Positions 799 to 5,206 of a stretch of 40,223 nt of DNA are shown one piece after another. The first letter of the stretch is position 1. Each line of letters begins with the position of its first letter. The DNA is taken from contig JAFGHU010000205.1 of assembly GCA_016929955.1 (NCBI GenBank), positions 1 through 40,223 on the forward strand, written 5' to 3'. The notes under the pieces are model-generated. The model searched no databases and was not told the DNA's origin. It worked only from the letters and a program-made list of their open reading frames with translations. A program made the translations under genes and the position numbers. Source of the DNA: Bacteroidales bacterium (GTDB lineage Bacteria; Bacteroidota; Bacteroidia; Bacteroidales; UBA12170).

Positions 799-1494
799 TT
801 ATTCCGTAATTAGTTTAAAACCAACACCATGAACATTTAATATTTCGATGCTCGGATCGCTTTTCAGGTATTTACGCAGTTTTGTTACATAAACATCCAT
901 GCTTCTAGCATTAAAATAGCTGTCGTCGTGCCAAATTTGCTTTAGTGCTTCACTTCTATCCAGAGTTTCGTTTCGGCGAGCACAAAGCATTTTTAATAAT
1001 TCCGCTTCTTTTGAGGTGAGTTTTTGACTCTCTCCATCGGCAGATAAAATGTGGCGTGTTACATCAAAAGAGAATTTACCGATCGTGAAAAACTCTTTGT
1101 TTACGTTTTCTTTATGTACTTGCGTTCTGCGTAAAATAGCTTCTATTCTAACCAAAAGCTCCTCCATACTAAAAGGCTTGGTAAGGTAATCGTCGGCGCC
1201 AATTTTAAATCCTTCCATTTTATCTTCTTGCAAGGATTTTGCGGTTAAAAACAATATAGGAATATCTTTATCTTTTTCTCTGATTTCCCGAGCCAGGGTA
1301 AAGCCATCTTTAACGGGCATCATCACATCTAAAATAAGAAAGTCGTATTCGCCCTTATTAAACTCATCCAAAGCTTCTAATCCATTAATACGAAGCGTAG
1401 TTTTGAATTTTTTTGCATCGAGATACGCTTTTAAAACAGTACCCAGATTTTTATCGTCTTCTGCCAATAGAATTTTTATTTCCTGTTGTCCCAT
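799..1494 (-). CDS. rprY: OmpR-family response regulator, RprY-like
   Basis: Cytoplasmic DNA-binding response regulator, 231 residues. The N-terminal receiver domain (about 5-120) shows the acidic pair D13/D14, phospho-acceptor D56 in LILDVMMP, the switch threonine in LFLTAKS and the conserved K106 in YLTKPFS. The C-terminal winged helix (about 130-229) contains LTSKEAELLKML and SMDVYVTKLRKYLK. The C-terminal half reads very like RprY of Bacteroides and Porphyromonas. It lies 1 nt downstream of the histidine kinase gene (stop TAA 1498-1496, ATG at 1494), so the two are translationally coupled. Targets are not known from the sequence. A plausible one is the tandem-repeat array at 2992-3028. 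The family call is firm; the RprY name is inferred from similarity. Confidence 0.9.
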   Translation of the reverse strand: MGQQEIKILLAEDDKNLGTVLKAYLDAKKFKTTLRINGLEALDEFNKGEYDFLILDVMMPVKDGFTLAREIREKDKDIPILFLTAKSLQEDKMEGFKIGADDYLTKPFSMEELLVRIEAILRRTQVHKENVNKEFFTIGKFSFDVTRHILSADGESQKLTSKEAELLKMLCARRNETLDRSEALKQIWHDDSYFNARSMDVYVTKLRKYLKSDPSIEILNVHGVGFKLITE

Positions 1495-1495
1495 A

Positions 1496-2938
1496 TTATG
1501 CTTGTTTTAGTATTGTGTTAAATGGCAAGTAAATCGAAAAACTACTTCCCTTTTTAAGTTCGCTTTCCAGTGTAATTTTTCCTTGATGCTTTTCTACAAT
1601 GGTTTTTACATAGCTTAGTCCTAAACCAAAGCCTTTTACATTGTGAATATTTCCGGTAGGTACACGATACAATTTTTCGAATACTTTTTTCTGATTCGAT
1701 TTACTAATGCCTATGCCGTTGTCTTTTATTGATATCAAAATACCTTTTCCTATTGTTTTTGTAGCGATATGAATAATTGGCGCCCAGGGCGTGTATTTAT
1801 TTGCGTTATCGAGCAAGTTAAAAAGAATATTGGTAATATGAACACGATCGGCCTGAATAATGGCATTTTCGGCATTTAATTCGGTATAGATTACCCCGCC
1901 TTTTTTCTCAATTTGTAAATTTATCTTTGATATGGCATCATTCAATGCATCGTGAATATCAATATTTTCTAATTTGAGTTGAATATCTCCTTTTTGAAAA
2001 CGGGCACTCTGTAATATTTTTTCGGCCATTCCCGACAAGCGTCCGTTTTCTTCTGAAATTACTTTAATATAAGCTTCGTAAAAGCCGTTTGTTTTAACAA
2101 GGTCTTTATCCGACATCGCCTCACAGGCCAGGGAAATGGTCGAGATTGGCGTTTTAAATTCGTGGGTCATATTATTGATAAAGTCGTTGCGCATTTCCGA
2201 TATTTTCTTTTGTCGGAATACCGTAGTTACCACATAAGTAAAAGAAAAAATAATGGCCGAAATAAGAAAAAACGAAATCAACAATAAAATCCATAAACGG
2301 GTAATTAAAAACTGTTGCTCGTTCGGAAAATAAAGCAAGAGAATATCGTGCTGCGAAAACACATCGCCCGGAAAAAGCATATATTTAAACGAAGACCTTA
2401 AGACTTCATTTGGAAATTTGCCCGTTTTTTGGATAACCAATCGGTTTCTGTTAGGACTATAAACGGCAAATTCGTATTTTGTGTTGATTCCGGCAGAGCG
2501 AAATTCGCGGTGTAAAAGCGAGTCGACAATTTTTACGTTTATCCGGTTTTCTACAAAATTGGTGAGTTTTTTATTTTGCGAAAACAAATTTTCAATTATG
2601 CGTTGCGAACTAAACCCGCTTTTATTGATATCGTTGATATTGGCGTTGGGCGAAAAATTCAATAAGTTGGAAATCAAGGATTGATTAAGCGAATCTACAG
2701 CATTGTTTAGCAAGAGTTTGTTTTGAGATAAGAGCTCTTTTTGTTTGGTGTAAGTTAGTGCTCTGTCGATTCGTTCTAAATCGTAAATCGCTTTCGTAAC
2801 TGAGGCATCCACATCGCGATTAAAAATAGCCTGTTTAACCACTATGGCATTCTTTATCCAATAAACCTGAATTACCATCAGGCTTATTAGCGCAAAAGAC
2901 ATGAGACTAATGATTAAATAGATGACCTTTTTATTCAT
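1496..2938 (-). CDS. rprX: Membrane sensor histidine kinase, RprX-like
   Basis: Inner-membrane sensor kinase of 480 residues. Transmembrane helices are at about 5-28 and 214-240, enclosing a roughly 185-residue periplasmic sensor region with no domain I recognise. The cytoplasmic part has the HisKA H-box with phospho-acceptor H259 (NNMTHEFKTPIS), the N-box NILFNLLDNANKYTP, the G1 box IKDNGIGIS and the G2 box FGLGLSYV, so all ATP-binding motifs are intact. It is cotranscribed with the downstream response regulator. A perfect -7 box lies 20-27 nt upstream and a four-unit repeat array lies beyond it, which would suit autoregulation. The kinase call is firm; the RprX name rests on its pairing with the RprY-like regulator. 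Confidence 0.9.
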   Translation of the reverse strand: MNKKVIYLIISLMSFALISLMVIQVYWIKNAIVVKQAIFNRDVDASVTKAIYDLERIDRALTYTKQKELLSQNKLLLNNAVDSLNQSLISNLLNFSPNANINDINKSGFSSQRIIENLFSQNKKLTNFVENRINVKIVDSLLHREFRSAGINTKYEFAVYSPNRNRLVIQKTGKFPNEVLRSSFKYMLFPGDVFSQHDILLLYFPNEQQFLITRLWILLLISFFLISAIIFSFTYVVTTVFRQKKISEMRNDFINNMTHEFKTPISTISLACEAMSDKDLVKTNGFYEAYIKVISEENGRLSGMAEKILQSARFQKGDIQLKLENIDIHDALNDAISKINLQIEKKGGVIYTELNAENAIIQADRVHITNILFNLLDNANKYTPWAPIIHIATKTIGKGILISIKDNGIGISKSNQKKVFEKLYRVPTGNIHNVKGFGLGLSYVKTIVEKHQGKITLESELKKGSSFSIYLPFNTILKQA

Positions 2939-2957: not shown

Positions 2958-2965
2958 CAAAGATA
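2958..2965 (-). promoter_or_regulatory. -7 box for the rprX-rprY operon
   Basis: CAAAGATA on the plus strand reads TATCTTTG on the minus strand, a perfect TAnnTTTG box. The expected transcription start is near 2951, giving a leader of about 13 nt before the ATG at 2938. Confidence 0.6.
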
Positions 2966-2991: not shown

Positions 2992-3028
2992 TTTAACTTT
3001 CTTTAACGCTTGTTAAATGCCCTTAACA
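2992..3028. promoter_or_regulatory. Four-unit 10-bp-phased TTAA array (candidate OmpR-family operator)
   Basis: TTAA cores occur at 2993, 3003, 3013 and 3023, exactly one helical turn apart. The first two units are identical direct repeats, TTTAAC (2992-2997 and 3002-3007). The last two form a perfect inverted repeat, TGTTAA-N6-TTAACA (3011-3028). The array sits about 40-75 bp upstream of the predicted rprX start (minus strand) and at a similar distance upstream of a plus-strand TATTTTTG box at 3050. OmpR-family regulators bind tandem half-sites at about 10-11 bp spacing, so the adjacent RprY-like protein is the obvious candidate. The binding itself is inferred. Confidence 0.55.
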
Positions 3029-3049: not shown

Positions 3050-3057
3050 TATTTTTG
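3050..3057 (+). promoter_or_regulatory. Plus-strand -7 box upstream of the candidate sRNA
   Basis: TATTTTTG matches TAnnTTTG. No protein gene follows on this strand, but an intrinsic terminator does, at 3142-3169. The predicted start is near 3063. There is no good -33 element, which would fit an activator-dependent promoter. Confidence 0.4.
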
Positions 3058-3062
3058 CTTCT

Positions 3063-3169
3063 GTAATTGAATGAATTTTCTCATAGTTCACAGAAATTAG
3101 TAAACTTTTTTATTTAGTAAAATTTTGATTTTTGGTTAGTAAGTGCGGTTGGCAGGCCGCACTTTTTTT
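3063..3169 (+). ncRNA. Candidate small RNA of about 105 nt
   Basis: The interval is bounded by a TATTTTTG -7 box (3050-3057) and a GC-rich hairpin followed by seven T residues on the plus strand. The only ATG frame inside is nine codons (MNFLIVHRN), so it is unlikely to be coding. The body is AT-rich, and its 3' end is the terminator stem. The terminator faces the plus direction although the flanking genes are both minus-strand, so those genes do not explain it. The transcript is inferred. Confidence 0.4.
3142..3169 (+). terminator. Intrinsic terminator, plus-strand orientation
   Basis: AGTGCGG (3142-3148) pairs with CCGCACT (3156-3162) around an 8-nt loop and is followed by TTTTTTT (3163-3169). 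On the minus strand, downstream of the cvpA stop, the same stem is preceded by A residues and followed by TACTAACC, so it would terminate less well in that direction. Confidence 0.65.
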
Positions 3170-3719
3170 ATTTAACAATATCTTCTACGGTTTCTTCGGC
3201 TTTGTTTTTTACTTTATCTAAAACACCATCCTCTTCGTCTATTCCGTTATAAAATTTAATAATAGCGGGAGCCACATCTTCGATATAAGGGTATAATATT
3301 GATTTAGAGGTTATTGATTCGCTAAAAATAAGTCTGCTTTTATCAAATTTATTCACAAAATAAATAACAAAGCTTAAAAATATTGCCGCTTTTAAAACGC
3401 CAAAAAAACCGCCAAAACCTTTGTTCAAAAAACTTAAAGCCACAAGGTCGATAATTTTTTCGAGGAGTTTTCCCAGCAGGTTAACAGCAAAAACTACTAA
3501 AACAAAAGTGAGTATAAAGGCAAGTATACCTAAGTATTTGGGATCGGTCGAAAAATAATCCTTCAGAAAGTCGGCTGTGATATACGAAAAGTGCAAACTA
3601 ATATAAATGCCCAAAACCAAGGCAACAAGTGTGGATAGTTCAATAATCAATCCTTTCGAAAATCCTTTGTAGGCAAGCCATACTATAGGAATTATAAAAA
3701 TAATATCAAGTACTCCCAT
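3168..3719 (-). CDS. CvpA family membrane protein
   Basis: A 183-residue integral membrane protein of the CvpA family. It has four hydrophobic segments, at about 3-19, 24-45, 62-86 and 103-122, then a soluble, acidic C-terminal tail of about 55 residues (IDEEDGVLDKVKNKAEETVEDIVK). The GFSKGLIIEL segment at about 19-28 and the GFGGFFGVLKA segment near the fourth helix are characteristic. CvpA was named for colicin V production and is linked to envelope stress tolerance in Proteobacteria; its molecular role is unsettled. The gene lies 3 nt downstream of the mlaF-like gene, so it is probably the last gene of the mlaE-mlaF-cvpA operon. The family call is firm and the function uncertain. Confidence 0.85.
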   Translation of the reverse strand: MGVLDIIFIIPIVWLAYKGFSKGLIIELSTLVALVLGIYISLHFSYITADFLKDYFSTDPKYLGILAFILTFVLVVFAVNLLGKLLEKIIDLVALSFLNKGFGGFFGVLKAAIFLSFVIYFVNKFDKSRLIFSESITSKSILYPYIEDVAPAIIKFYNGIDEEDGVLDKVKNKAEETVEDIVK

Positions 3720-3722
3720 AAC

Positions 3723-4469
3723 TTATTTTTTTAAACGTTTGGTGAGCTCAGTAGAAAACACAAAAGCGTTGAGCTCCGGACTATCATCAATTAATATGGT
3801 GTGTTTGTTTCCCTGCCAACTCAATAAACCATTATTTATAAAATTAATATGATCGCCCATTTTTAAAACAGAATTCATATCGTGCGAATTAATAATGGTT
3901 GTCATATTGTATTCTTCGGTTATTTCGGCAATTAAATCGTCAATCAAATTGGCTGTTTTCGGATCGAGACCCGAATTCGGTTCATCGCAAAATAAATATT
4001 TCGGGTTATTAGCAATGGCGCGGGCAATAGCTACTCTTTTGGTCATGCCGCCACTTAATTCTCCGGGATTTAGCTTATTTGCATTTTCCAGATTAACGCG
4101 TTTTAAAACTTCATTTACGCGCGCCTTTTTTTCTTCTAAAGATTGATCGGTATACATATTGAGCGGAAACATTACGTTTTCCTCTACATTATAATAATCA
4201 AATAAAGCACCACCCTGAAAAAGCATACCAATTTCTTTACGGATGGACTTGCGGTTTTTAAAGTCCAAGGAGGAAAAATTTCGTCCATCAAAATCGATAT
4301 GTCCTTGATCTACTTCGAATAAACCCACAAGGCATTTTAACAGCACTGTTTTTCCTGCTCCACTCTGGCCGATAATCAAATTATTTTTGCCTTTTTCAAA
4401 CTTTATGGAGATATCCTTTAAAATTTGGGTTTCGCCAAAGAATTTCGATATGTTAAAAGCCTCAATCAT
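3723..4469 (-). CDS. mlaF: MlaF-type ABC transporter ATP-binding protein
   Basis: ATPase of the Mla/MCE phospholipid transport system, which moves lipids between outer and inner membrane. It has 248 residues. Walker A is GQSGAGKT (34-41), the Q-loop LFQGGALFDYYNV follows, the signature is LSGGMTKRVAIARA, Walker B is YLFCDEPNSGLDP and the H-loop is INSHDM. The DEPNSGLDP and SGGMTKR wording is typical of the Mkl/MlaF subgroup rather than importers or drug exporters. The start ATG overlaps the end of the permease gene by 4 nt, which indicates translational coupling. No MlaD/MCE substrate-binding protein gene is in the window, so that partner must be encoded elsewhere. Confidence 0.9.
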   Translation of the reverse strand: MIEAFNISKFFGETQILKDISIKFEKGKNNLIIGQSGAGKTVLLKCLVGLFEVDQGHIDFDGRNFSSLDFKNRKSIRKEIGMLFQGGALFDYYNVEENVMFPLNMYTDQSLEEKKARVNEVLKRVNLENANKLNPGELSGGMTKRVAIARAIANNPKYLFCDEPNSGLDPKTANLIDDLIAEITEEYNMTTIINSHDMNSVLKMGDHINFINNGLLSWQGNKHTILIDDSPELNAFVFSTELTKRLKK

Positions 4470-5206
4470 GTAAGTAAGAGTTGAGTTAATAGCAAGTTAA
4501 ATAGAATGATTAAAACGCTGGCATAAACCACGGTTTTGGTGCTTGCTTTTCCAACCTGAATAGATCCTCCGTTAACAATATATCCCTGAAAACCGGCCAT
4601 AGTAACTATAATAATGGCAAATACTGCAGTTTTAATTAAAGCATAAAATACGGTAAAACTTTCAAAATCTAGCTGAACACCACTTATAAATTCGTCGGGA
4701 GTAAGCAAATTTGTAAATACAGCAATTAAATATCCGCCAATAATTCCAATATACATTCCGAAAATAATCAGTGCAGGATTGATTAAAGTAGCAGCCACTA
4801 ATTTTGGAAAAATAAGAAAATTAGCCGGATTGATTCCCATAATTTCTAAGGCATCAATCTGACCGGAAATGCGCATGGTACCAATTTCGGATGCAATACT
4901 TGATCCAACTTTACCGGCTAAAATTAAACTCACCATAGTTGGAGCAAATTCCAAAACAATCATCTGGCGCGTTGAAAAACCGATGAGCGTTTTCGGAAGT
5001 AGCGGATTATCAATATTGTATGCCACTTGTATGGCAACAACTGCACCGGAAAACAAAGAAACGATGGCCACAATTCCAAAAGAATCGACACCAATGGCAT
5101 AAAGTTCGGTTTTAAGCCGCTGAAAAAATATCCGCCAACGATCGGGTCGTGATACCACCTGCGACATCAATAGTAAATAAGCACCAATATCTTTTATCAG
5201 GTTCAT
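4466..5206 (-). CDS. mlaE: MlaE-type ABC transporter permease
   Basis: Permease of the Mla lipid transporter, 246 residues, inner membrane. An N-terminal amphipathic segment is followed by about five hydrophobic segments. The family's conserved core is clear: FGIVAIVSLFSGAVVAIQ (about 43-60), the glycine-rich APTMVSLILAGKVGSSIASEIGTMR around 88-112, and QIDALEIMGINP just after it. It is the first gene of a three-gene minus-strand operon with mlaF and cvpA. No convincing -7 box was found in the roughly 140 bp upstream. A TATTTTTG at 5214-5221 faces the plus strand instead. Confidence 0.9.
   Translation of the reverse strand: MNLIKDIGAYLLLMSQVVSRPDRWRIFFQRLKTELYAIGVDSFGIVAIVSLFSGAVVAIQVAYNIDNPLLPKTLIGFSTRQMIVLEFAPTMVSLILAGKVGSSIASEIGTMRISGQIDALEIMGINPANFLIFPKLVAATLINPALIIFGMYIGIIGGYLIAVFTNLLTPDEFISGVQLDFESFTVFYALIKTAVFAIIIVTMAGFQGYIVNGGSIQVGKASTKTVVYASVLIILFNLLLTQLLLT

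Follow-up and report, generated by a model that had tools for sequence, protein, structure and literature searches.

We describe here an array of four repeats, spaced about one helical turn apart, which lies between the minus-strand gene of an rprX-like sensor kinase and a region closed by a plus-strand terminator (3141-3164) in a Bacteroidales genome. We consider it likely, with a probability of roughly 0.7, that this RprY-type box controls rprXY and, in its four-unit form, also a new divergent small RNA. Relatives across the phylum keep two repeats and loci with a matching divergent promoter keep four, and it is for this reason that a single regulator is thought probably to control both its own genes and the divergent small RNA. 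What the sequence establishes is the array and its conservation, the geometry of the promoters, the link between the distal pair and the divergent promoter, and the terminator. These features offer a candidate binding-site definition for a two-component system that is spread across the Bacteroidota, and point to a small RNA linked to the RprXY system in many families. Neither the GTTAA box nor the divergent RNA is described in the part of the literature that was searched.

Results

The array and its surroundings

The features discussed below are listed here with their positions in the window, by which we mean the whole stretch of DNA analysed (40,223 nucleotides).

799..1494, minus strand: rprY-like response regulator gene (Response_reg and Trans_reg_C domains), whose product is the presumed binder of the array
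1496..2938, minus strand: rprX-like sensor kinase gene (HisKA and HATPase_c domains)
2958..2965, minus strand: predicted rprX -7 element TATCTTTG, 27 bp past the proximal pair, consensus TAnnTTTG
2993..3007, minus strand: proximal pair (units 3 and 4), GTTAAAGAAAGTTAA, the predicted rprX promoter box, from its conservation in loci outside the genus and the logo
3013..3027, minus strand: distal pair (unit 2, TTTAA, 3013-3017; unit 1, GTTAA, 3023-3027), tied to the divergent promoter
3050..3057, plus strand: predicted -7 element of the divergent promoter, TATTTTTG, 42 bp from the proximal pair
3062..3171, plus strand: candidate small RNA of about 110 nt with approximate ends, from the promoter, conserved segments and terminator in relatives and from its fold
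3076..3085, plus strand: conserved segment TTTTCTCATA, complementary to ATG-containing start regions
3122..3137, plus strand: conserved segment ATTTTGATTTTTGGTT
3141..3164, plus strand: terminator hairpin followed by a T run

An earlier note on this DNA had drawn attention to four TTAA cores at 10-bp spacing, and their positions were verified at 2993-2996, 3003-3006, 3013-3016 and 3023-3026. The pattern TTAA-N6-TTAA-N6-TTAA-N6-TTAA is unique in the 40-kb window, where dinucleotide shuffles gave an expectation of 0.01. Read toward rprX on the minus strand, the core is GTTAA at 2993-2997, 3003-3007 and 3023-3027, while the unit at 3013 is TTTAA rather than GTTAA. The same note had also singled out two identical TTTAAC repeats (2992-2997 and 3002-3007) and a TGTTAA-N6-TTAACA palindrome (3011-3028); both are present as described, but neither turned out to be the informative feature. 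The palindrome was rejected because unit 2 is only weakly conserved and the GTTAA direct repeat strongly so, which makes the direct repeat the informative core. TTTAAC-N4-TTTAAC, which had been put forward for a genome-wide search, was likewise given up as a regulon motif, since the window's own genome is not enriched for it (62 matches when up to one mismatch was allowed, and 141 for the reversed control). The suggestion that predicted starts flank the array on both strands agrees with the two predicted -7 elements listed above. A leader peptide on the rprX strand (starting ATGAGAAAATTC) was also considered and rejected, as frame lengths vary between relatives.

The rprY gene follows rprX, both on the minus strand, and beyond the terminator lie cvpA (3168-3719, minus strand), mlaF and mlaE. 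The best NCBIfam model for the regulator is RprY (NF051850), which leads the other models by about 150 bits; the score of 333.9 bits is below the cut-off of 370, and the protein is therefore called RprY-like. It has the receiver and Trans_reg_C domains expected of a regulator encoded next to an OmpR/PhoB-family operator, and its residues N195, A196, R197, M199, D200, V201 and Y202 are invariant among 16 orthologues. In Porphyromonas gingivalis, RprY bound its own promoter in a gel shift and has been proposed as a possible repressor (PMC3646045). As a side observation, cvpA and mlaF (3168-5206 in the window) adjoin rprX in several members of the genus and were not seen next to it at the examined loci from other families.

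Conservation upstream of rprX orthologues

Sixty relatives and a set of named genomes yielded 101 rprX-rprY loci. Of the 87 loci outside the genus of the window, 64 have GTTAA-N5-GTTAA in the 300 bp that precede rprX, and they range from Bacteroidales to Sphingobacterium. Distances between GTTAA words in these upstream regions peak at 10 (72 cases), 20 (27) and 30 bp (26), any other distance occurring at most five times, and the opposite strand has no such peak; the one-turn, OmpR-family type of array that had been proposed for the rprX operon thus passed the check on orthologues. About a quarter of the loci outside the genus have no GTTAA pair within 300 bp of rprX, and some of these may reflect mis-assigned gene starts.

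TAnnTTTG, the -7 consensus known from published work (PMC7366714), or TAnnTTCG follows the proximal pair in 62 of the 101 loci, and in 57 of these it does so after a gap of 27-29 bp. Records titled Bacteroidales and Flavobacteriales are among the 62, as are two Sphingobacterium genomes. The gap itself contains no conserved -33 motif. Operators of the OmpR/PhoB family are tandem repeats about one helical turn apart at a fixed place before the core promoter, and both properties are found here. The spot just ahead of the core promoter is one that we take to be the class II activator position for OmpR-family regulators.

Two variations were seen among individual loci. The box upstream of rprX is degenerate in a Phocaeicola metagenome-assembled genome (L088), which counts among the loci that lack the pair, and Sunxiuqinia and Gaoshiqia (L106, L111) carry an extra GTTAA-N5-GTTAA ahead of rprX, some 60 bp further out than the proximal pair.

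The distal pair and the divergent promoter

A second pair, 20 bp further out, is present at the window locus and at 27 other loci. A locus of the four-unit type is also carried by the cultured relative Perlabentimonas gracilis (L068). Between the proximal pair and the divergent -7 element there are 42 bp in 19 loci and 32 bp in 7, two distances that differ by one helical turn. With the genus thinned to four loci, 20 of the resulting 56 loci have a divergent -7 element at exactly 32 or 42 bp, whereas 1000 shuffles gave 0.13 such loci on average and never more than 2. Outside the genus, this phased element accompanies 16 of the 18 four-unit loci and none of the 34 two-unit loci (p=1.5e-11, for related sequences that are not fully independent), which indicates that the distal pair goes with the divergent promoter. 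This tracking is the strongest support for the proposal, made in the earlier note, that one array could serve both the rprX operon and a divergent transcript. An operator shared between divergent promoters, as in agr and luxO-qrr1, is thus present as far as the DNA itself can tell. In loci of the 32-bp class, unit 1 sits between -33 and -7 of the divergent promoter, and a regulator bound there might act as a repressor.

The candidate small RNA and its possible targets

Downstream of the divergent promoter, 31 of 37 loci have a terminator at least as stable as -8 kcal/mol, whereas the other strand has one in 2 of 37 loci and shuffled sequences have one in 2.7% of cases; a terminator on the divergent strand is also found in 10 of the 34 two-unit loci. 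Within the genus the hairpin is kept though its sequence changes, and across families the terminator stems of the candidate RNA do not align. Both TTTTCTCAT and a TTTGATTTTT segment are kept in nine genus sequences, and TTT[TC]*CATA occurs in 20 of 37 loci across families, as against 3.4% of shuffles. In the predicted fold, UUCUCAU is located in a loop. A search of the genus with the complement of the RNA's tail gave nine matches, seven of them at rprX; the candidate is tied to rprX and is not multicopy in the genus. It has no Rfam match at gathering score, with 16.1 of the required 56 bits against FopS and 18.4 of 72 against rteR, so that neither family is reached, and the corresponding regions of the relatives gave weak and unrelated Rfam matches.

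Start regions in Bacteroidota are A-rich and devoid of Shine-Dalgarno sequences (PMC6847099), and the conserved segments of the candidate RNA are complementary to typical start regions of this kind. The module TTYATAATTNTTGGTTTTTG has six matches in 294 genomes of the order. Three of these are the array-linked RNA (L157-L159), and in the remaining three (L160-L162) the other strand reads, as judged by eye, as the start of a coding sequence. Complements of the seed in the genus are found at the start codons of two TonB-type receptors (L209, L210), of exported proteins and of others, and in the window's own genome at the start of an HmuY-like protein (L218); their number in the genus, 82 against 65 for the reversed control, is no clear enrichment.

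Other genes behind the motif

The combination of motif and promoter matches once in the window's own genome, at rprX. Eleven genomes of the genus contain 15 matches, of which 10 are at rprX (control, 4), and 118 genomes of the order contain 80, against 7 for the control. Among 30 of the order matches that were inspected, 16 precede rprX-like kinases. The motif also stands before genes for an HtrA-like protease (L190), an ABC transporter (L191), a DUF1573 protein (L178) and two carboxypeptidase-regulatory-like (CarbopepD_reg_2) proteins (L179, L187), which suggests, as a lead only, that the regulon of the RprY-type box is small and partly envelope-related. In two genus members (L135, L136, around 1500-1550), motif and promoter are located ahead of the gene for an exported peptidase-like protein, and one of the two (G003) yielded no close rprX orthologue.

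Discussion

The following mechanism is proposed. The RprY-like regulator from the neighbouring operon would bind the array. One dimer would occupy the proximal GTTAA-N5-GTTAA, at roughly -38 to -53 of an rprX promoter with no obvious -33 element, and would activate rather than repress rprXY, so that the feedback would be positive. From the distal pair, a second dimer would govern the divergent promoter at a fixed helical phase, and this promoter would drive a small RNA of about 110 nt that ends at the terminator at 3141-3164. The RNA may block the translation of mRNAs, many of which encode envelope proteins, by base-pairing with their A-rich start-codon regions through its UUUUCUCAUA segment and possibly also through UUUUGAUUUUUGGUU. 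It is possible, if somewhat short of an even chance, that the RNAs form an undescribed Bacteroidales family which acts as the RNA arm of RprXY, with the four-unit box driving both regulator and RNA, and the RNA silencing the mRNAs of envelope proteins by masking the regions of their start codons. If the RNA does block start codons, envelope sensing would be coupled to the control of translation in bacteria without Shine-Dalgarno sequences.

Several other explanations need to be weighed against the view that an RprY-type box activates rprXY and, with four units, a divergent RNA. RprY could instead be a repressor that blocks one or both promoters when bound, in negative feedback, so that the small RNA or rprXY would be made when RprY is inactive. 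The P. gingivalis work (PMC3646045), which detected binding of RprY to its own promoter and suggested that the protein may repress, agrees with this, as does the location of unit 1 inside the divergent promoter in the 32-bp class. However, the placement of the proximal pair, upstream of the -33 position and with its end some 27 bp from TAnnTTTG, suits an activator, as does the absence of a conserved -33 motif; we therefore hold repression to be unlikely, though with an appreciable chance of being correct. It is improbable that the box serves only RprY autoregulation of rprX, with the divergent element and the terminator being incidental and no functional small RNA being made. Such a reading would account for the 34 of 62 loci that have the proximal pair alone, without a phased divergent promoter, for the missing Rfam match and for the small excess of seed complements, but it leaves unexplained why the distal pair co-occurs with the phased divergent -7 element (16 of 18 loci against 0 of 34) and why the divergent strand carries a terminator in 31 of 37 loci and the other strand in 2 of 37.

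The binder could also be an OmpR-family regulator other than RprY. These genomes encode many two-component systems and sequence alone cannot name the protein that binds; yet the box stays with rprXY throughout the phylum, and within the genus the motif with its promoter is almost confined to rprX, which makes another regulator quite improbable. That the repeats are a chance product of AT-rich intergenic DNA can be given practically no weight. While TTAA is frequent in such sequence and TTTAAC-N4-TTTAAC is not enriched genome-wide, this explanation is refuted by the expectation of 0.01 for the window and by spacing that is conserved across the phylum.

The arrangement predicted here, in which a response regulator controls its own operon and a regulatory RNA that diverges from it, is of a known kind. 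In the agr P2-P3 region of Staphylococcus aureus, AgrA binds direct repeats between divergent promoters and controls its own operon and RNAIII (PMC4227749); however AgrA is a LytTR protein that uses separate pairs of sites near -60, and RNAIII also encodes a peptide, whereas the window has an OmpR-family regulator and one contiguous 10-bp array. In Vibrio luxO-qrr1, too, a small RNA lies just upstream of a response regulator gene, runs in the opposite direction and is controlled by that regulator (PMC8043402), but LuxO acts with sigma-54, luxO is reported to be constitutive, and the sites and the RNA are unrelated to those described here. The WalR/VicR box, TGTWAH-N5-TGTWAH, is bound by an OmpR-family regulator and, like the present array, has TGTTAA-like direct repeats that face the same side of the helix (PMC4168254); it belongs to another phylum and another regulator, and its period of 11 bp rather than 10 bp sets the two apart. 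The RprX/RprY pair of Bacteroides and Porphyromonas is by family the same gene pair, and in P. gingivalis RprY binds its own promoter, but there RprX has been lost; the RprX/RprY literature found, which covers part of the whole, gives neither a binding motif nor a divergent RNA. Lastly, the Bacteroides RNAs GibS and FopS (RF04319) resemble the candidate in having a single-stranded seed, a terminator and a proposed action near start codons (PMC11697453), although the candidate falls outside the FopS family by its Rfam score, is linked to rprX and occurs in the genus in other than multicopy form.
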